Positions 25,434 through 35,228 of a DNA stretch of 64,000 nucleotides are shown here, piece after piece. The DNA lies in the NCBI GenBank assembly GCA_018267285.1, contig JAFDYU010000016.1:1-64000 (forward strand). Reading direction: 5' to 3'. Under the pieces are notes generated by a model that made no database searches, was not told where the DNA came from, and worked only from the letters and a program-made list of their open reading frames with translations. Source of the DNA: Bacteroidota bacterium. Lineage in GTDB: Bacteria > Bacteroidota > Bacteroidia > Cytophagales > Cyclobacteriaceae. A program made the translations under genes and the position numbers. Within the stretch, counting starts at the first letter, position 1. Each line of letters opens with the position of its first letter.

Positions 25434-26699
25434 TTACACCAGGTATTCGAAAAGGTTTTCATTTTGATTGATCTCCGTGTAATTGAGCCTGAACTCGTTC
25501 ATTCGTGTAGTGAGCGAAAAATAGTCTTCTTTCGATTTCAATTCGATGCCGATGAGTGCTGGGCCACTTTCTTTGTTGTTTTTTTGAATGAACTCAAACC
25601 GAACGATGTCATCGTGCGGGCCAAGGATGTTGTTTACAAATTCTTTTAACGCCCCCGGCCGTTGTGCAAAACGCACAATAAAATAATGCTTTAGCCCTTC
25701 GTACAACAACGATCGCTCTTTAATTTCCTGCATTCGGTCAATATCATTATTGCCACCGCTTACAATGCAAACTATCTTTTTCCCTTTGAGTTGTTCGGCA
25801 TATTGATCGAGCGAAGCAATGGTGAGAGCGCCTGCCGGTTCGGCAACAATGGCATCTTCATTGTACAATTGCAAAATGGTGGAACTCACTTTTCCTTCAG
25901 GCACCAGCGCCACTTCGTGTAAAAAATCTTTACAGATATCAAATGTGAGATCGCCTACTTTTTTTACTGAGGCACCATCTACAAATCGTTGTATTTTTTC
26001 TAAAACTACCGGATGCCCGGATTTTAATGCAGCCGTCATGGAAGGTGCACCTTGTGGCTCTACACCAATTATTTTTGTTTGCGGAGAATACGTTTTGAAA
26101 TAAGACCCAACGCCCGCACATAAGCCACCGCCACCTATCGGCACAAATAAATAATCGATACCGGAGAGGTCGTCAATAATTTCTTTCCCTACGGTTCCCT
26201 GGCCTTCGATTACTTTGATGTGATCGAAGGGCGGAATGAACGTCATCTGTTTTTCTTGAGCGTGTTCAAGAGCTTTAACCTGGCATTCGTCAAACGTATC
26301 TCCGGTGAGAACGATGTCAACGAAACCGTTGCCAAACATTTTTACTTGATTTATTTTTTGATTGGGCGTGATCACCGGCATGTAGATTACACCTTTGATG
26401 TGCAACATTTTGCAAGAAAGAGCAACGCCCTGTGCGTGGTTACCGGCACTGGCACAAACAACGCCACAATCTCGCTGTTCTTTACTCAGGCTTTGGATGA
26501 GGTTGTACGCCCCCCGAATTTTGTAAGAACGCACCACTTGTAGATCCTCGCGTTTTAAATAAACCTCAGCCTGAAATTTTTCGGATAGCTTAGGGTGGTG
26601 TTGTAGTGGTGTTTTAAGCACCACATTTTTAAGGGCAAGGTGCGCCCGGTTGATGTCGATGGTTTGCTGTTGTACGGAAATCATTTTTAAATAGGACAT
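25434..26699 (-). CDS. ilvA: Threonine ammonia-lyase (threonine deaminase)
   Basis: Converts threonine to 2-oxobutanoate, the first step to isoleucine. The 421-residue protein has a fold-type II PLP domain with RSYKIRGAYN (PLP lysine), SAGNHAQGVA and the phosphate-binding PIGGGGLCAG, then one ACT-like regulatory domain (about 335-421) rather than the two of E. coli IlvA, the short biosynthetic form. Last gene of the ilv operon, 75 bases after ilvC. Start ATG at 26699, with an alternative ATG five codons on. Confidence 0.93.
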   Translation of the reverse strand: MSYLKMISVQQQTIDINRAHLALKNVVLKTPLQHHPKLSEKFQAEVYLKREDLQVVRSYKIRGAYNLIQSLSKEQRDCGVVCASAGNHAQGVALSCKMLHIKGVIYMPVITPNQKINQVKMFGNGFVDIVLTGDTFDECQVKALEHAQEKQMTFIPPFDHIKVIEGQGTVGKEIIDDLSGIDYLFVPIGGGGLCAGVGSYFKTYSPQTKIIGVEPQGAPSMTAALKSGHPVVLEKIQRFVDGASVKKVGDLTFDICKDFLHEVALVPEGKVSSTILQLYNEDAIVAEPAGALTIASLDQYAEQLKGKKIVCIVSGGNNDIDRMQEIKERSLLYEGLKHYFIVRFAQRPGALKEFVNNILGPHDDIVRFEFIQKNNKESGPALIGIELKSKEDYFSLTTRMNEFRLNYTEINQNENLFEYLV

Positions 26700-26774: not shown

Positions 26775-27845
26775 TCAGTTAATCATGCTAGCTTCTACTT
26801 TATCTTTTTCGGGGCGCAAAGAGCGTACGGCTGCTCCGGCTTGCCACAGTTCGCTTGTGCGAAGTTCTTTTAATTCGTCTGCAAGTTTTTCCCGATAATT
26901 AGGTTGGCTGCACGTGTCGATGGTGCGCTTGGCTTCCGTTCCGCTGGCCACACTTTCGTAGAGTTCCTGGAACACCGGAAGCGTTGCCGCTTTAAATTTT
27001 TTCTTCCAGTCTAAAGCTCCGCGCTGTGCCGTGGTAGAGCAGTTTGCGTACATCCAGTCCATTCCATTTTCGGCTACGAGCGGCATCAAGCTTTGTGTAA
27101 GCTCTTCAACGGTTTCGTTAAAGGCTTCGGAAGGCGAATGACCTTTCGACCGCAATACTTCATATTGTGCTTCAAAAATTCCGGCAATGGCGCCCATCAA
27201 CGTTCCTCGTTCTCCGGTTAAATCCGAATAGACTTCTTTTTTGAAATCGGTTTTGAAAAGATAGCCCGAGCCCACGCCAATACCCAGTGCTATCGCTTTT
27301 GTTTCTGCATGGCCGGTTGCATCTTGAAATACGGCATAGCTTGAATTAATTCCTTTGCCTTGCAAAAATAATCTGCGAACGGAAGTGCCGGAACCTTTGG
27401 GAGCTGCGAGAACAACATCCACATCCGGAGGCGGAACAATGCCTGTCTGTTCTTTGAATGTAACACCAAAGCCATGCGAAAAATAAAGTGTCTTGCCTTT
27501 GGTCAGATGAGGTTTAATTGTTGGCCAGGAAGCAATTTGCCCGGCATCGGATAATAAATATTGAATGATGGTTCCTTGTTTTGCTGCTTCCTCAATTTCG
27601 AATAAAGTTTCGCCCGGTACCCATCCGTGTTGGATTGCTTTTTCCCAGGTTTTGCCACCCGAACGTTGTCCGATGATAATGTTAAATCCATTGTCGCGCA
27701 GGTTGAGTGCCTGAGCCGGGCCTTGTACGCCATAACCAACGATCGCGATGGTTTCGTGTTTTAAAACTTCCAGCGCTTTTTCCATCGGAAACTCTGCGCG
27801 CGTTACCACTTCTTCAAGGGTTCCTCCAAAATTAATCTTTGCCAT
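26775..27845 (-). CDS. ilvC: Ketol-acid reductoisomerase
   Basis: Isomerises and reduces acetolactate/acetohydroxybutyrate with NAD(P)H and Mg. The Rossmann motif GYGVQGPAQALNLRDNG and the knotted C-terminal domain with DLTGERGTLMGAIAGIFEAQYEVL (metal-binding Asp/Glu) are present in a 356-residue class I length protein. It follows ilvN after 11 bases in the operon. Confidence 0.95.
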   Translation of the reverse strand: MAKINFGGTLEEVVTRAEFPMEKALEVLKHETIAIVGYGVQGPAQALNLRDNGFNIIIGQRSGGKTWEKAIQHGWVPGETLFEIEEAAKQGTIIQYLLSDAGQIASWPTIKPHLTKGKTLYFSHGFGVTFKEQTGIVPPPDVDVVLAAPKGSGTSVRRLFLQGKGINSSYAVFQDATGHAETKAIALGIGVGSGYLFKTDFKKEVYSDLTGERGTLMGAIAGIFEAQYEVLRSKGHSPSEAFNETVEELTQSLMPLVAENGMDWMYANCSTTAQRGALDWKKKFKAATLPVFQELYESVASGTEAKRTIDTCSQPNYREKLADELKELRTSELWQAGAAVRSLRPEKDKVEASMIN

Positions 27846-27856
27846 TTTTTTAATTG

Positions 27857-28159
27857 TTAGTATGTTACTAGTTGATTTAATTCTTTTTGTTCTTGTACAG
27901 ATTGAAAGTGCAATGTTTCTTCAAGTACTTTTACTTCTTCCACTTCAATCAGTTTTTCCAATTGATGTTTTACCCGTTCAACCAGATCGATCGTAGTGTA
28001 AACACGCATGATCACACGCCCTGTGCGGAAATCGGTTGCATCTTCAAAGCAGGTTAATTTTTTAATTCGCACACGCCTGCGGTTCAGAATATTGATGATC
28101 CGGTTGAGCACCGAAAAATTATTGTCGGCTGCCAGTTCGAGGATGTAATCTTTTTTCAT
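27857..28159 (-). CDS. ilvN: Acetolactate synthase small subunit
   Basis: A 100-residue ACT-domain regulatory subunit that activates IlvB and confers feedback inhibition by valine/isoleucine in this family. Residues 1-75 form one ACT domain (LNRIINILNRRRVRIKKLTCFED), and the short tail gives an IlvM-like length, much shorter than the about 160-residue IlvH/IlvN. It sits 16 bases after ilvB. Confidence 0.88.
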   Translation of the reverse strand: MKKDYILELAADNNFSVLNRIINILNRRRVRIKKLTCFEDATDFRTGRVIMRVYTTIDLVERVKHQLEKLIEVEEVKVLEETLHFQSVQEQKELNQLVTY

Positions 28160-28175
28160 TTGATTTTATGTTATA

Positions 28176-29918
28176 TCAAGAAGTAGGAGCTTCCAGCAGC
28201 ATGTCGCTCACCGCGGCACCCGCAGGAATCATAGGAAAAACATTATCTTCTTTGCCAACGACTACTTCGAGAAAATACGATGTTTTTGAGTTTAACATTT
28301 CTTTCAGTGCCGGTATTAAATCTTCTCGCTCCACCACTTTTTGTGCTTGGATGTTGTAGGATTTGGCAACCATTACAAAATCAGGATTTTCCATTTCAGT
28401 AAATGAGTAGCGCTTGTTGTGGAACAACTGCTGCCACTGACGCACCATGCCGAGAAAATTATTATTAAGCACTAAAATTTTTACAGGTATTTTGTATTGC
28501 ATGATGGTGCCCAGTTCTTGCATTGTCATTTGATACCCACCATCGCCAATCACTGCAATTACAGGCACGGAAGGAGTACCCAATTTTGCACCAATAGCTG
28601 CAGGCAATGCAAAGCCCATAGTGCCCGCCCCGCCCGAAGTGATGTTTGTGTTTGGATTTTTGTATTGATAATAGCGCGAGGTAACCATCTGGTGTTGGCC
28701 AACATCCGTAACGATTACAGCCTCACCCTGAGTAAGCTCCGACAGATGATGAATTACTTCGCCCATCATCAGCTTGCCCGAAGAAGACAGTTCCTTTTGT
28801 GTTACTTTTTCTTTTTCTACTTTATTGAGGCCGTGGAATTTATGCACCCAACCTGAGTGATCTTTTTTATGGCATTGTTCTACAAGCGCAGTCAATGCTT
28901 CGCGCGCATCGGCATGGATGGCGGCCTCCACCGGAATGATTTTACCTATCTCTGCTTTGTCGATATCGATGTGAACGACTTTGGCTTGTTTGGCATATTT
29001 GCTCACGTTGCTCGTCACCCGATCATCGAAGCGCATCCCGATCCCGATCAGCACATCGCATTCGTTGGTTAGCACATTAGGGCCATAGTTGCCGTGCATA
29101 CCGAGGAAGCCCACATAGTTTGGGTGATCGGCAGGGAAGCAACCCAACCCAAGCAAGGTGCAGGCAACGGGTATTCCTGTTTTTTCTGAAAAAGCCACCA
29201 ACTCTTTTGAGGCATTGGATAAAAGTACACCTTGGCCGGCCAGTATGTAAGGCTTCTTCGAGTCATTAATCAGCTGCGCAGCTTTTGTTATTTGAAGCGG
29301 CTGCACAGTTGGCTTGGGTTTGTACGTACGGATGTTCTCGCATTTTTTATACTCACCAAGTTCAATCGTTTCGTTTTGAGCATTCTTGGTAATGTCGATC
29401 AACACGGGGCCGGGTCTTCCGGTGCGGGCAATGTAAAAAGCTTTGGCAATGGCTGGTGCAATGTCTTTGGCTTCGGTCACTTGTACATTCCATTTGGTAA
29501 CCGGAAGTGTTGTGTTGATCACATCAATTTCCTGAAACGCATCGGTGCCGAGTAAGTGCGCAAACACCTGGCCGGTGATGCAAACAATAGGAGTGGAGTC
29601 GATCAGTGCATCGGCCAGCCCGGTAATTAAATTAGTAGCACCCGGCCCGGAGGTGGCAAAAACTACTCCCGGTTTTCCGGAAACGCGCGCAAACCCCTGT
29701 GCAGCATGAATGGCACCTTGTTCATGGCGCACTAAAATATGTTTTAGCTTATCCGGATAGTGGTAGAGTGCATCGTACACCGGCATGATGGCACCTCCAG
29801 GGTAACCGAAAATAGTTTCCACACTTTCAGCCAAGAGGCACCGAAGCAACATTTCGGCTCCGGAAATTTTTAGTTCTGATTTTCGTACAGGCTCAGTCTT
29901 CGTCAGTAACGCATCCAT
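28176..29918 (-). CDS. ilvB: Acetolactate synthase large subunit
   Basis: Thiamine-diphosphate enzyme joining pyruvate with pyruvate or 2-oxobutanoate. The 580-residue protein has the catalytic Glu in [23 protein letters not shown]-binding GMHG and the ThDP motif [13 protein letters not shown]...LNNNFLGMV. Its ATG at 29918 lies inside ilvD, overlapping by 26 bases, so translation is coupled. Followed by its own small subunit. Confidence 0.96.
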
Positions 29919-31572
29919 CGGCAGCAGTTTTTACTTGTTTTGCATATTTGAAAAGCACTCCATTTTTTACTTTTAATGTTGGAGCTATGTGTTTTGATCT
30001 GCGCAGCACCAGTGTTTTTTCTTCCACCAGTAAATTGAGCTGATGATTTTTTATGTCGATTTCAATCCAGTCTCCATCTTCAACCAGCGCCAGCAGTCCG
30101 CCATCGAAAGCTTCGGGTGTAATGTGGCCAACCACAAAGCCGTGCGTGCCTCCCGAAAACCTTCCATCGGTGATGAGCGCAACTTTTTTGCCTAAGCCTG
30201 CACCCATAATCATAGAAGTAGGTTTCAACATTTCGGGCATGCCGGGTGCGCCCCTTGGCCCAACGTAACGGATCACCACCACATCTCCTTCTTTTATTTT
30301 ACCCGAACGGATGCCGTCCACCAACTCAAACTCACCATTAAATACACGAGCCGTGCCACGAAATTTTTCGCCTTCTTTGCCAGTGATTTTTGCCACCGCA
30401 CCTTTACTGGCCAGGTTTCCATACAAAATCTGAATGTGCCCGGTTTTTTTGATCGGCTTTTCGATGGGGTGAATAATATCTTGCTTTTCAAAATCAAGTA
30501 GGGAAATGTCTTTTAAATTTTCGGCTATCGTTTTTCCGGTTACGGTTATACAATCACCATGTAAATAGTTTTTATCCAAAAGATATTTCATCACGGCCGG
30601 GGTGCCTCCAATTTTGTGCAGATCTTCCATCAGGTATTTTCCGCTGGGTTTAAGATCGGCCAGCAACGGAGTCTTATCCGAGATTCGCTGAAAATCTTCT
30701 TGTGTGATTTTTATGCCTGCACATTTTGCCATGGCGATCAGGTGGATCACAGCATTGGTAGATCCGCCCAGAGCCATCACTATCGTCAGTGCATTTTCGA
30801 ATGCCCGAAACGTCATGATATCACAGGGCTTCAAATCTTTTTCCAACAAATGGCGGATGGCAATGGCTGCCTCCGCACATTCTTTTGATTTTTCTTTACT
30901 CAAGGCGGGGTTAGAAGAAGAGTAGGGCAACGCCATGCCCAATGCTTCAATGGCAGAAGCCATCGTGTTGGCGGTGTACATGCCACCACAAGCACCCGCA
31001 CCGGGGCAAGAATTTTGAACGATGCCTTTGTAATCTTCATCCGAAAGTTTGTTCGCCAACTTTTCACCGAGTGCTTCGAATGCCGAAACAATGTTCAGCG
31101 ATTTTCCTTTCCAGTGGCCGCCTGCAATGGTTCCACCGTAAACCATTATTGACGGGCGGTTCAGCCGCGCCATGGCCATCAAAGACCCCGGCATGTTTTT
31201 GTCGCAACCCACCACGGCAATGAGCGCATCGTAGTATTGAGCGCCACAAATGGTTTCTATCGAATCGGCAATTACTTCACGGCTTACGAGCGAGTAGCGC
31301 ATCCCTTCGGTGCCGTTGCTCATGCCATCGCTAACGCCAATGGTATTGAAGATTAAGCCAACTAAATCCTGTGCCCACACGGCTTGTTTAACTTCAGTGG
31401 CAAGTGCATTGAGGTGCATGTTGCAGGAGTTGCCTTCAAAACCGGTGCTCGCAATACCCACCTGTGCTTTTTTCAAATCATCCTCGTTCAAACCGATTGC
31501 GTAAAGCATGGCTTGTGCTCCCGGCAGGGTTGGATCTTGCGTAAGTGTTTTGCTGTGTTTATTTATTTCCAT
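29893..31572 (-). CDS. ilvD: Dihydroxy-acid dehydratase
   Basis: Iron-sulphur enzyme making 2-oxoisovalerate and 2-oxo-3-methylvalerate. 559 residues, usual length. Cluster/metal ligands are in [11 protein letters not shown] and [17 protein letters not shown]; the C-terminal domain has [20 protein letters not shown]. It starts 6 bases after ilvE and overlaps ilvB. Confidence 0.96.
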
Positions 31573-31578
31573 GTGTGC

Positions 31579-32469
31579 TTAAACAATACAGTAGGCGTAG
31601 CTTTTTTCTAAAACCATATTGCGATAGGCTTCTTGCACAACAGCGCCCATGGATGTTATCCACGGCTTATTGAGTGTATGGCCTTCAACCGAATGGATTC
31701 CGGTAATACCCACGGCTGTGCCACAAAAGAAAGCGCTGTCGGCTTGGTGCAGCTCTTCGGGTAAAAAATACTTTTCTTTAACGGGCAGGTCGAGGGTATG
31801 GCAAATGTCGAGAACGGTTTGGCGGGTAATGCCGGGCAAAATATTTCCCACTGGAGCGGTGTAGAGCACTCCGTCTTTTTCGAAAAAGAAATTAGCCGCG
31901 GGTCCTTCGGTTACAAATCCATTGGCATCCAGCATCAGCGCTTCATCAAAACCGTGTTGCCGTGCTTCGGTAGACGCGAGGATTGAGTTCACAAAATGGC
32001 CACAGACTTTCGCCTCGATAATCATTGACTTGGGGCTGAGGTGTTGATGCGTGGAAATACACACCGACAATAATTTGTTATCGAAATATTTTTTCCACGG
32101 CCATGCGCAGATCATAACCGATGATTGTTGCGGAGCGGAGAGCGTCATGTTTTCACCTGCCATTACCAACGGCCTGATGTACGCGTTTGATAGATTGTTT
32201 TTTTCGAGCACCTGATAGCTGAGTTGCACCAATTCTTCCACACTGTAATCAAACGGGATGTTCATCAGGCGGCAGCTTTTTATCATTCGCTCGAAGTGCT
32301 CGTAAGGCTTGAATATTTTTGTGCCGTTAACCGTGTGGAACGACCGCAACCCTTCAAATACCCCAAAGCCATAGTGCAGGGTCTGATTGTACACATTGGT
32401 ATGTGCATCTTTCGCTTTTACAAATTGCCCGTCCAGAAAAAGTACGGAGTCTTTAAATTGAGGATTCAT
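31579..32469 (-). CDS. ilvE: Branched-chain amino acid aminotransferase
   Basis: Fold-type IV PLP aminotransferase for the final step to Val, Ile and Leu. The 296-residue product has FGVFEGLRSF, the PLP-lysine region IIEAKVCGHFVNS and the C-terminal FFCGTAVGITGIHSVEGH. The ATG at 32469 (MNPQFKDSVLFLDGQ) is preferred over an upstream in-frame TTG at 32484. First structural gene of the ilv operon, directly behind the attenuator. Confidence 0.94.
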   Translation of the reverse strand: MNPQFKDSVLFLDGQFVKAKDAHTNVYNQTLHYGFGVFEGLRSFHTVNGTKIFKPYEHFERMIKSCRLMNIPFDYSVEELVQLSYQVLEKNNLSNAYIRPLVMAGENMTLSAPQQSSVMICAWPWKKYFDNKLLSVCISTHQHLSPKSMIIEAKVCGHFVNSILASTEARQHGFDEALMLDANGFVTEGPAANFFFEKDGVLYTAPVGNILPGITRQTVLDICHTLDLPVKEKYFLPEELHQADSAFFCGTAVGITGIHSVEGHTLNKPWITSMGAVVQEAYRNMVLEKSYAYCIV

Positions 32470-32506
32470 GTGTTGTTGAAACAATCGTTAGTTTGTGTTT
32501 ACTCAT

Positions 32507-32542
32507 ATAAAACAAAACCGCCCCGAGTTCTCGGGGCGGTTT
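32507..32542 (-). terminator. ilv operon attenuator terminator
   Basis: Read on the minus strand, AAACCGCCCCGAG and CTCGGGGCGGTTT form a 13-bp stem with loop AA (32515-32542), followed by TTTTGTTTTAT. It stands between the leader peptide and ilvE. The 5' arm base run CCGCCCC (32533-32539) can instead pair with GGGGTGG in the end of the leader peptide coding region (32571-32577), one G-U pair included, which gives an antiterminator. Confidence 0.85.
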
Positions 32543-32567
32543 ATCAATTTTTTTTTTGACAAAATCA

Positions 32568-32642
32568 TTACCACCCCGGGTGTCCAAGAATAATAATGAC
32601 AATAATTATTGTGGTTAAACTATGCAGTTTTCCAGATAACAT
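32568..32642 (-). CDS. ilv operon leader peptide (branched-chain attenuator)
   Basis: A 24-codon open frame beginning ATG TTA TCT and ending GGG TGG TAA. Codons 10-19 read TTIIIVIIIL: two Thr, six Ile, one Val, one Leu, exactly the amino acids made or used by the operon that follows. The codon run lies just before GGGGTGG, which can sequester the 5' arm of the terminator. A ribosome stalled on Ile/Val codons would leave GGGGTGG free and allow readthrough into ilvE; one reaching the stop would cover it and allow termination. The frame was too short for routine gene finding. Sequence features are seen directly; the mechanism is inferred from ribosome-mediated attenuation in other bacteria. Confidence 0.88.
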   Translation of the reverse strand: MLSGKLHSLTTIIIVIIILGHPGW

Positions 32643-32675
32643 TTTGATTCGGTTGCTGATCGATAAAGTCATTCG

Positions 32676-32714
32676 CTCTAAACTATAGTGCAAGGATAGA
32701 GAAAAAAATTCAAG
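32676..32714 (-). promoter_or_regulatory. candidate promoter of ilv leader
   Basis: On the minus strand CTTGAA (32709-32714) and TATAGTTTAG (32678-32687) lie about 21 bases apart and roughly resemble TTTG/TAnnTTTG. Transcription would start near 32670, about 28 bases before the leader peptide. The match is imperfect. Confidence 0.3.
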
Positions 32715-32771
32715 CCGTACTAATCCTTACTAAAAAATATTTTTTGAAAAGCTTGCGTTGGGTAGAGAAAT

Positions 32772-32915
32772 TCAAATTTCTCTTTTAGAGATATTGGCAC
32801 ATTTGCCACAGCCAGTCTCGCATTCCCCCGAAGATTGAAACGATCTGTAGATCATTCTCCCCAGGTATACTGCGGCTCCACCAACGGCTAACAAAAGAAG
32901 AAGGTTCTGAATCAT
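32772..32915 (-). CDS. Small Cys-rich membrane protein, FeoB-associated type
   Basis: A 47-residue frame, too short for usual cut-offs. Residues 1-24 form one membrane helix (MIQNLLLLLAVGGAAVYLGR); the tail has SGECETGCGKCAN with four cysteines. This matches the pattern of the FeoB-associated Cys-rich membrane proteins common in Bacteroidota, which may act in iron or metal handling. No feoB is visible nearby. It runs in the ilv direction but lies upstream of the ilv leader, in the gap between the divergent ilv and leu operons. Confidence 0.65.
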   Translation of the reverse strand: MIQNLLLLLAVGGAAVYLGRMIYRSFQSSGECETGCGKCANISKREI

Positions 32916-33015
32916 CGATACAAAAATACAAAATTAACTTGGGCTTTGCATCCTCAATTTTCCTAGTTTAATCTGTTTAGAACTCACTAACACTTGTGAG
33001 TAATTGAAAATAATT

Positions 33016-33047
33016 TTTGGTCAATCGTATTCTAAGTTCTATAATTT
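33016..33047 (+). promoter_or_regulatory. candidate leu operon promoter
   Basis: TTTG (33016-33019) and TATAATTT (33040-33047) are 20 bases apart, close to the Bacteroidota promoter layout. The transcript would begin near 33055, just before the leader hairpin at 33075-33110. Confidence 0.35.
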
Positions 33048-33074
33048 TTTTCACCTTCGTGCCCACATAACACA

Positions 33075-33110
33075 GTCGCCCTGTCAGCACAAAAATGCCG
33101 GCAGGGCGAC
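33075..33110 (+). promoter_or_regulatory. leader hairpin of leu operon
   Basis: GTCGCCCTG (33075-33083) pairs with CAGGGCGAC (33102-33110), extended inside by GCA/TGC across AAAAA. TTGCATTTTAA follows, a weak U-rich tail. It lies 39 bases before leuC. It may be an attenuator or RNA-protein site, but unlike the ilv leader no Leu-rich leader peptide is seen before it. Confidence 0.5.
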
Positions 33111-33148
33111 TTGCATTTTAACGTATTCAGAACAAACGAACACTTGTT

Positions 33149-34558
33149 GTGAGCAAAAAACCCAAAACAATTTTTGAAAAAATCTGGGATGCCCATGTGG
33201 TGAAAGGATCATCCGGCTACCCCGATGCACTTTTTATCGATCGGCATTTTATTCATGAGGTCACCAGCCCGCAGGCTTTTGATGGCCTTCGTAAAAAAGG
33301 GCTTCAGGTTTTCAACACGGCAAGAACTACAGCCACCGCAGACCACAATGTGCCTACAAAAAATCAGCACCTTCCCATAAAAGAAACATTGTCACGGCAT
33401 CAGGTGGAAACACTTCGAAAAAATTGCGCTGAATTTGGCGTTGAGCTTTACGACCTGGGCCATCCGTTTCAGGGAATAGTCCACATCATCGGCCCTGAGT
33501 TGGGTTTGACTTTGCCCGGAATGACGATTGTGTGCGGAGACAGCCACACCTCAACCCACGGAGCGTTTGGAAACATTGCTTTTGGAATCGGCACAAGCGA
33601 AGTAGAACAAGTGCTCGCTACACAATGTGTGTTGCAATACAAGCCCAAGACTATGAAAATAGAAATCAACGGACAACTTGGCAAAGGTGTGCTGAGCAAG
33701 GATATTATTCTTTATATCATTTCAAAAATATCGGCAAGTGGGGCAACCGGATTTTTTGTGGAATATACCGGAGAAGCAATTCGAAGTCTGTCGATGGAAG
33801 CCCGGATGACGATCTGCAACATGAGTATTGAAATGGGTGCGCGTGGTGGCCTCATTGCACCCGATGAAACTACGTTCAACTATATCAACGGAAGAAAATT
33901 TGCACCTCAGGGTAAACGGTTTGAAGAAGCTGTAACGAGATGGAAGCAATTGAAAACAGATGAGGGTGTAGCATACGATACAGAGTTGGTCTTTGATGCC
34001 GCAGACATTGAACCCATGATAACCTACGGCACCAATCCGGGCATGGGCATGAAAGTTACGGATCGGATTCCAACCGTGGCGGAGTTAAAGGAGATTGGGC
34101 AGCAAACCTCTTTTCAAAAATCGCTGGAGTACATGGGGCTTGAGTCGGGCACATCCTTGCTGCACAAACCTATTGATTATGTCTTCATTGGGAGTTGCAC
34201 AAATGCCCGCATTGAAGATTTGAGATTGGTAGCCGATTTGGTGAAAGGAAAAAGTAAGGCGCCCGATGTGGAAGTTTGGGTGATTCCGGGCTCGAAGCAA
34301 GTGGAAGCACAAGCTAAGCTCGAAGGCCTCGATAAAATTTTTGAACGTGCCGGCTTTGAATTACGCCAGCCGGGATGTTCGGCATGCCTCGGCATGAACG
34401 AAGACAAAGTGCCCGAGGGCAAATATTGCGTGAGCACAAGCAACCGAAATTTTGAAGGAAGACAAGGCCCGAAGTCGCGAACCTTTTTAGCGAGCCCGCT
34501 TACGGCCGCAGCCGTTGCCATAACGGGTAAGGTAACGGATGTGAGGGAACTAATATAA
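33149..34558 (+). CDS. leuC: 3-isopropylmalate dehydratase large subunit
   Basis: Aconitase-family subunit isomerising 2- to 3-isopropylmalate with LeuD. The 469-residue product has the 4Fe-4S cysteines in [13 protein letters not shown] and [14 protein letters not shown] and the segment [26 protein letters not shown]. The start is GTG at 33149 ([18 protein letters not shown]). First gene of leuC-leuD-leuB-leuA. Confidence 0.96.
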
Positions 34559-34622
34559 TAGTTGTTGGTTGATTGCTGGTCGTATTTCGATCTGGCGAAC
34601 AACCAATAACCAATAACTAACA
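34559..34622 (+). repeat. long imperfect inverted repeat between leuC and leuD
   Basis: The left arm TAGTTGTTGGTTGATTG and the right arm AACCAATAACCAATAACTA pair imperfectly around a CGTATTTCG loop. It fills the whole leuC-leuD gap while the other leu gaps are 4-12 bases. Similar word-repeat spacers occur at 55-130 and 6084-6155. Confidence 0.5.
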
Positions 34623-35228
34623 ATGATGAGTAAAGACAAATTTATAAAACTGACTTCAACAGTAGTTCCGATTCAAATCGAAAATATTGATACGGATCAG
34701 ATTATCCCTGCCCGCTTTTTGAAAGCCACCACACGAGATGGTTTTGGCGATAACCTGTTTCGCGATTGGAGATTTGATTCGAACGGTGAGCCCATCAAAG
34801 ATTTTGTTCTGAATACTTCGGTGTATGCCGGAAAGATTTTGGTTGCGGCTAAAAATTTTGGTTGCGGCAGCAGCCGCGAACATGCCGCCTGGGCTATTCA
34901 TGATTTCGGCTTTCGGGTAGTAGTATCCAGTTTCTTTGCCGATATTTTTAAAAACAACGCGCTCAACAACGGCCTTTTGCCGGTTACGGTGAGTGAATCC
35001 TTCTTGAAGAAATTATTTCTGGTAATAGAAAAAAATCCTAAAACGGAAGTTGTAGTAGATCTCGAAAATCAAAGTATAGCTTTTAATTCCGAACAAGAAA
35101 GTTTTGAAATCAATGCCTACAAAAAAACCTGTTTGATGAACGGCTACGATGACATTGATTTTTTGCTCAGCATAAAAGACGATATCAGAATCTTTGATCG
35201 ACTGCAGACTGCGGCTTCTCAACTGTAA
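34623..35228 (+). CDS. leuD: 3-isopropylmalate dehydratase small subunit
   Basis: The swivelling subunit partner of LeuC, 201 residues. [13 protein letters not shown] and the conserved [20 protein letters not shown] are diagnostic. Two adjacent ATG codons can start it (34623, 34626). leuB follows after 12 bases. Confidence 0.95.

Follow-up and report, generated by a model that had tools for sequence, protein, structure and literature searches.

The window, that is, the whole stretch of 64,000 nucleotides analyzed here, carries on its minus strand a short leader frame, a terminator hairpin with a U-rich tail and then ilvE, as the first-pass annotation had described. The gene ilvE, encoding a branched-chain aminotransferase (31579–32469; TIGR01122, above cut-off), is the first gene of the operon and is taken to start at ATG 32469, TTG 32484 being the start of the longest open reading frame (ORF). 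It is followed by ilvD (29893–31572), ilvB (28176–29918), a short gene for an ilvN/H-like small subunit (27857–28159), ilvC (26775–27845) and ilvA, for threonine ammonia-lyase (25434–26699). NCBIfam models matched all six genes, the small subunit weakly (30.9 bits, below the family cut-off of 56.9), in agreement with the gene order ilvEDBNCA proposed earlier.

The leader peptide gene (32568–32642), which encodes MLSGKLHSLTTIIIVIIILGHPGW* and has counterparts in relatives, runs from ATG at 32642 to TAA at 32570–32568, with 24 sense codons of which codons 10–19 read TTIIIVIIIL. Codons 12–19 (Ile Ile Ile Val Ile Ile Ile Leu; 32586–32609) are regarded as the control codons from the frame itself, the stall folding and the placement of I/L/V residues in relatives. 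Segment 1, the predicted protector arm (codons 15–20; 32584–32600), is assigned from the fold and is not individually significant; its predicted partner in the minimum-energy fold lies at 32564–32579. Segment 2, the antiterminator arm CCGGGGTGGTA (32569–32579), consists of the last codons and the TA of the stop codon, and is defined by its duplex, the stall folding and an arm-swap test. It pairs with segment 3, the 5' arm of the terminator (32531–32542), found by stem scan, folding and the duplex. Scanning and folding place the intrinsic terminator hairpin, segments 3:4, in the 28 nt at 32515–32542, and the scan places the T-rich tail TGTTTTATAT at 32505–32514.

Two other features lie nearby. 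The gene leuC is divergent to the ilv operon, and directly upstream of it there is a strong inverted repeat (GTCGCCCTGTCAGCA...TGCCGGCAGGGCGAC; window 33075–33110); a leucine leader for leuC was looked for and rejected, as there is no Leu-rich frame among the 11 listed ORFs of at least 20 residues in 32640–33148. A small minus-strand ORF (32772–32915) weakly matches the FeoB-associated Cys-rich membrane protein family PF12669 (24.6 bits, cut-off 27).

Folding of the leader RNA

The terminator stem comprises 12 pairs, eight of them G-C, and folds with -22.7 kcal/mol (z = -5.4), so that the GC-rich hairpin and its T tail stand as first described, the length being 12 pairs and not 13. A terminator scan of 30000–35000 gave six sites, the ilv stem being the longest, versus 6.5 expected, and 11 promoter-like sites versus 8.3; because the terminator count is at chance level, the scan alone proves nothing. 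The end of the leader, GGGGTGG, had been noted as complementary to the 5' arm of the terminator, and indeed CGGGGUGGU and ACCGCCCCG form nine pairs, including one G-U, in a duplex of -19.6 kcal/mol, against a mean of -6.9 kcal/mol for mononucleotide shuffles (p = 0.005).

Both alternative structures were folded. The full leader (-43.7 kcal/mol, z = -4.0) contains small 5' helices, a hairpin from GUCAUUAUUAUU to the leader end, an A-rich hairpin and the terminator. In this minimum-energy fold codons 15–20 pair with the end of the leader (1:2) alongside 3:4, the helix being made by GUCAUUAUUAUU (codons 15–18) and two further bases. The RNA ending before the 3' arm of the terminator pairs GGGGUGG with CCGCCCC instead (-26.8 kcal/mol, z = -2.5), and an equally stable fold was obtained in three of 200 shuffles. 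The full leader therefore gives the terminator and the shortened RNA the antiterminator 2:3, as expected earlier, and by sequence and folding the two are mutually exclusive. As modeled, the leader follows a four-segment scheme of 1:2, 2:3 and 3:4, the earlier proposal having comprised 2:3 and 3:4 without 1:2.

At gathering scores of Rfam 15 the window yields tRNAs only, with neither a T-box nor another family matched, and the ilv leader has no match. Membership in an Rfam family was rejected, the matches on the attenuator strand being below threshold (for example, Phe_leader, 32.3 bits for a threshold of 55; RcsR1, 30.7 for a threshold of 60).

The leader–terminator module in relatives

Regions upstream of ilvD were compared from the same order, family and class. 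A module was defined as a leader with at least seven I/L/V in 10 residues and, 10–60 nt downstream, a T-tailed stem of at least eight pairs. The first detector, which allowed terminator loops of up to 9 and overlooked relatives with longer loops (for example, with MLKKTQNIVLIIINTIVVLLKGR), found the module in 35 of 91 order regions versus 0 of 91 reverse complements, five dinucleotide shuffles giving 0, 2, 0, 1 and 0 of 91, and this combined test of leader and terminator, unlike the scan, is evidence against chance; the figures were 41/65 for the family (reverse complement, 1) and 6/22 for the class (reverse complement, 0). With loops of up to 16 the module was found in 41/90, 43/65 and 9/22 regions of the order, family and class (reverse complements 0, 1 and 0). 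The conserved hydrophobic leader frame that had been predicted for relatives thus occurs, with a terminator, in 84 of the 155 order and family regions, the own locus included, versus one of 155 reverse complements; 71 of the 155 show no module match at the thresholds used. Among close relatives, 11 of 12 regions contain it, again counting the own locus, and in the twelfth (G314) no module was detected. IlvE is 66–67% identical in four relatives; in a four-sequence DNA alignment the terminator alone aligned well, and this alignment was kept out of the pair counts.

These counts cover 88 of 95 places (30 loci and 58 fetched regions; G118, G079, G092, G051, G105, G117 and the second G082 place were left out) and 65 of 70 further places (left out: G299, G336, two G302 pieces and the second G317 place). 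L004 is absent from all counts and L003 from the 90-region counts, while L056 and L090, being longer copies, were excluded. Regions clipped by contig ends include L036, L091, L109, L139 and L163. The first hit in L171 is an artefact (inside a gene-length frame, p = 0.721) that is still counted among the 80, 86 and 90 attenuators.

When the stop-codon region of each attenuator was paired with its own terminator arm, 72 of the 80 order and family attenuators did better than mononucleotide shuffles at p ≤ 0.05 (order, 34/37; family, 38/43), and the corresponding figure for class-level attenuators from outside the order is only 1/6. These p-values are too small because related sequences are not independent, and the main evidence of the arm test is in the contrasts with swapped arms and upstream windows. 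Own arms average -16.5 kcal/mol versus -10.8 kcal/mol for swapped arms, the own arm being better in 79/86 (Wilcoxon p = 2 × 10-14). For the 80 attenuators, 20-nt windows that begin at -20, -10 and 0 relative to the stop codon give an excess of own over swapped pairing of -1.7, -4.2 and -2.9 kcal/mol, respectively; for windows between -140 and -30 it differs from zero by at most 0.4 kcal/mol. The position of segment 2 varies: in 58 of the 80 it overlaps the stop codon, in 14 it is contained entirely in the frame and in eight it comes after the frame. The proposal that the antiterminator is built from the last codons of the leader accordingly holds at this locus, with the addition of the UA of the stop codon, and fails as a general placement.

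Ribosome position and the proposed mechanism

For each possible position of the A site, the RNA that a stalled ribosome leaves free on its downstream side was folded, with footprints of 12 and 15 nt, the 2:3 score being the summed pair probability over ten at equilibrium. The score is 0.86–0.88 for A sites up to Ile17 with both footprints, and is unchanged at Ile18 with the shorter one; it falls to 0.25–0.68 at Leu19, to 0–0.25 at Gly20 and to zero from His21 onward. The end of the Ile/Val run thus falls at the position that the switch requires, and the position of the stall, as computed, would decide which hairpin can form. This agrees with the idea, put forward in the first-pass annotation, that stalling at Ile/Val frees the end of the leader and finished translation masks segment 2. 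Stalls ahead of the Ile run also give 0.86–0.88, so the stall model is an equilibrium argument in which 1:2 would need a kinetic override.

In 90 attenuators the I/L/V fraction is 0.80–0.93 at five to eight codons before segment 2, 0.53 at four codons and 0.06–0.17 in the last three; that is, the Ile/Val/Leu codons stop three to four codons ahead of the antiterminator segment, as the footprint of a ribosome would require. Relative to the last permissive stall, also computed, the fraction is 0.87 at -2, 0.64 at -1, 0.33 at 0 and 0.11 at +1, and climbs again beyond +5, where at most 17 leaders reach. The drop near segment 2 may partly come from base composition. Threonine, which had been named among the sensed amino acids, was rejected for this role, constituting 5.7% of the residues in 80 leaders, with no enrichment, compared with 22.4% for Ile, 15.3% for Val and 15.0% for Leu.

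A protector hairpin had been thought dispensable. In 37 order-level attenuators, the own locus included, the leader up to segment 2 was compared with controls in which the upstream part was shuffled (mononucleotide): the mean z is -1.10, 11 of the 37 fold better at p ≤ 0.05, and in 34 no fewer than 5 nt of segment 2 are paired with upstream sequence. Together with the 1:2 helix in the minimum-energy fold, these values do not support its absence and suggest that a 1:2 protector is likely to be general among the order-level attenuators; at the own locus (z = -1.23, p = 0.129) the predicted protector is unproven. In RNA short of the 3' arm of the terminator, 2:3 beats 1:2 at equilibrium (segment 1–2 pairing, 0–0.3 nt), and hence the protector would be confined to a kinetic role or to a role in the completed leader.

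We consider it highly probable that the leader controls the ilvEDBNCA operon by ribosome-mediated transcription attenuation. Transcription would start upstream of 32642, and RNA polymerase would transcribe the leader with a ribosome translating the 24-codon peptide at the same time. When charged tRNA-Ile (or that for Val or Leu) is scarce, the ribosome would stall in codons 12–19 and leave segment 2 free to capture segment 3 as it emerges, so that no terminator forms and the operon is read. When charged tRNA is plentiful, the ribosome would reach the stop codon and cover segment 2; 3:4 would then form, and transcription would end near 32505. Computation shows the elements of this model, the mutual exclusion of 2:3 and 3:4, the geometry relative to the ribosome footprint and the recurrence in relatives. 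The model further supposes that the 1:2 protector works and that the operon is regulated in this way in vivo.

If the hairpin were a mere terminator of the small upstream gene at 32772–32915, for which a FeoB_associated match (24.6 bits, cut-off 27) could be cited, the short frame would be there by chance; the leader–terminator pair nevertheless precedes ilv genes in 84/155 regions, and its 2:3 pairing is genome-specific in the comparison of own and swapped arms, which makes this explanation very improbable. Even less credit is given to a functional small hydrophobic peptide with incidental RNA structure. The peptide has a very hydrophobic middle part, but the listed peptides are dissimilar by eye outside the I/L/V run, the leader has no Pfam match, the spacing between the last I/L/V codons and the antiterminator is steady, and trpE carries Trp leaders instead.

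The two-state switch without protector, as first annotated, is a variant of attenuation in which an untranslated leader would antiterminate by default. It gains from the equilibrium advantage of 2:3 in the shortened RNA and from the lack of significance of 1:2 in this genome alone, and loses from the completion of 1:2 before segment 3 is synthesized, the full-length minimum-energy fold (1:2 with 3:4) and the upstream pairing of segment 2 in 34/37 leaders (mean z = -1.10); on balance it appears unlikely, though clearly less so than the two explanations above. Recurrence, 2:3 pairing and stall folding support the ribosome-mediated attenuation first suggested, stripped of Thr sensing and of the absence of a protector. 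Very probably it is a working, conserved and classic attenuator of the ordinary kind.

Related leaders and known attenuators

Similar modules precede other amino acid operons. The scans for trpE and hisG covered the 30 best loci of the 41 and 39 family genomes with a match, and required a terminator together with a leader that has two or more Trp in six residues or four or more His in eight. A Trp leader with terminator precedes the trpE match in 29 of these 30 best loci (reverse complements, 1/30), the name trpE resting on best match because all matches score below the curated cut-off of TIGR00564; for hisG, only nine of the 30 best loci have such a module with a His-rich leader (reverse complements, 0). 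The own genome has both, namely a Trp-Trp-Trp leader MNKISANAWWWYRSFFDRCPAMP at its trpE-like locus (L232) and a His-rich leader MNQFQNIHHHHLFHTSGRCSVLI at its hisG locus (L211), each with a terminator. Pairing 2:3 is present in 24 of the 29 trp leaders and absent in five; among the 24, Trp codons lie past the predicted boundary in three, and an overlap between segment 2 and the stop codon is seen in only 11. Of nine his leaders, four have a His codon past the boundary and two show stop overlap. Overlap with the stop codon is therefore a habit of the ilv attenuators and not of all.

In five relatives (G128, G047, G101, G342 and G335; loci L022, L030, L031, L127 and L147) two modules, both Ile/Val/Leu-rich, stand in series before the ilv genes. 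Pairing is significant in both modules in G128, G047 and G101; the first module has p = 0.174, not significant, in G342 and p = 0.010 in G335.

A palindrome-like motif, CTAACAnTTGTTAG, occurs with one to three mismatches near the ilv and leu genes (window 32478–32491, 32987–33000, 33137–33150 and 34617–34630), its matches in the entire window numbering 20 against 20.6 expected. With at most two mismatches, it has 10 hits upstream of the leader in six of 11 close-relative regions and lies between terminator and gene in eight of the 11 (mononucleotide shuffles, 0.0 in both cases), an enrichment that is post hoc because the motif was picked from the same sequences. In 73 other regions it was found once upstream of the leader and never between terminator and gene, and genome-wide in three genomes it did not exceed a backwards-pattern control (6 vs 8, 1 vs 8 and 9 vs 14). 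It is a candidate operator. The motif TANNTTTG, the Bacteroidota -7 promoter motif, is commoner in relatives (19/80) than in mononucleotide shuffles (5/80), and was rejected as promoter of the own leader, no exact copy being found within 110 nt upstream.

A broader reading, which we hold tentatively and at slightly less than even odds, is that in this Bacteroidota group attenuation is general for ilv and trp and partly for his, that the ilv stop codon usually belongs to the antiterminator, so that the arrival and stay of the ribosome at the stop would be the switch, and that in some lineages two attenuators in tandem with the same signal deepen control. Ribosome-mediated attenuation requires a ribosome close behind RNA polymerase, and its spread thus bears on transcription–translation coupling, which would be close in this phylum if the general reading is true. 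A textbook mechanism would be extended to a large Bacteroidota group with strong comparative evidence, and the many natural variants could serve for testing how ribosome position sets the switch.

The leader attenuators of E. coli ilvGMEDA, trp and his represent the classic four-segment model. With these the present attenuator shares a leader rich in the end product, an exclusive antiterminator and terminator, and a 1:2 protector, here predicted; it differs from them in its phylum and in that segment 2 of the Bacteroidota attenuators usually overlaps the leader stop codon, kinship having been compared via Rfam only. A comparative study of 2010 by Lopatovskaya and others may already list Bacteroidota. 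That study is cited in PMC4833913. In searches of the open-licence literature no title or abstract start was found that describes an ilv attenuator of this group. Ribosome-mediated attenuation has been described mainly in Proteobacteria and Actinobacteria (PMC2965389, PMC1262725), and a 2010 survey states that no leader peptide system was known outside these phyla before its own find in Firmicutes (PMC2965389). In Bacteroidota, leader-peptide attenuation has already been suggested for Flavobacterium psychrophilum, a member of the same phylum as the present host, with strong clues ahead of amino acid operons and with structured 5' elements preceding hisG and pheA, the term ilv being absent from the main text of that paper (PMC9723704); in B. 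thetaiotaomicron, long 5' UTRs contain short ORFs that resemble leader peptides (PMC7366714). The ilvBNC attenuator of Corynebacterium glutamicum, with terminator, antiterminator and antiantiterminator hairpins, resembles the present one in its short leader with I, V and L codons (MTIIRLVVVTARRLP) and differs in phylum and operon order (PMC11857589). The tandems resemble Salmonella mgtCBR, in which two leader-ORF attenuators in series answer two different signals, whereas both leaders of the tandems here are rich in the same amino acids (PMC3641672).
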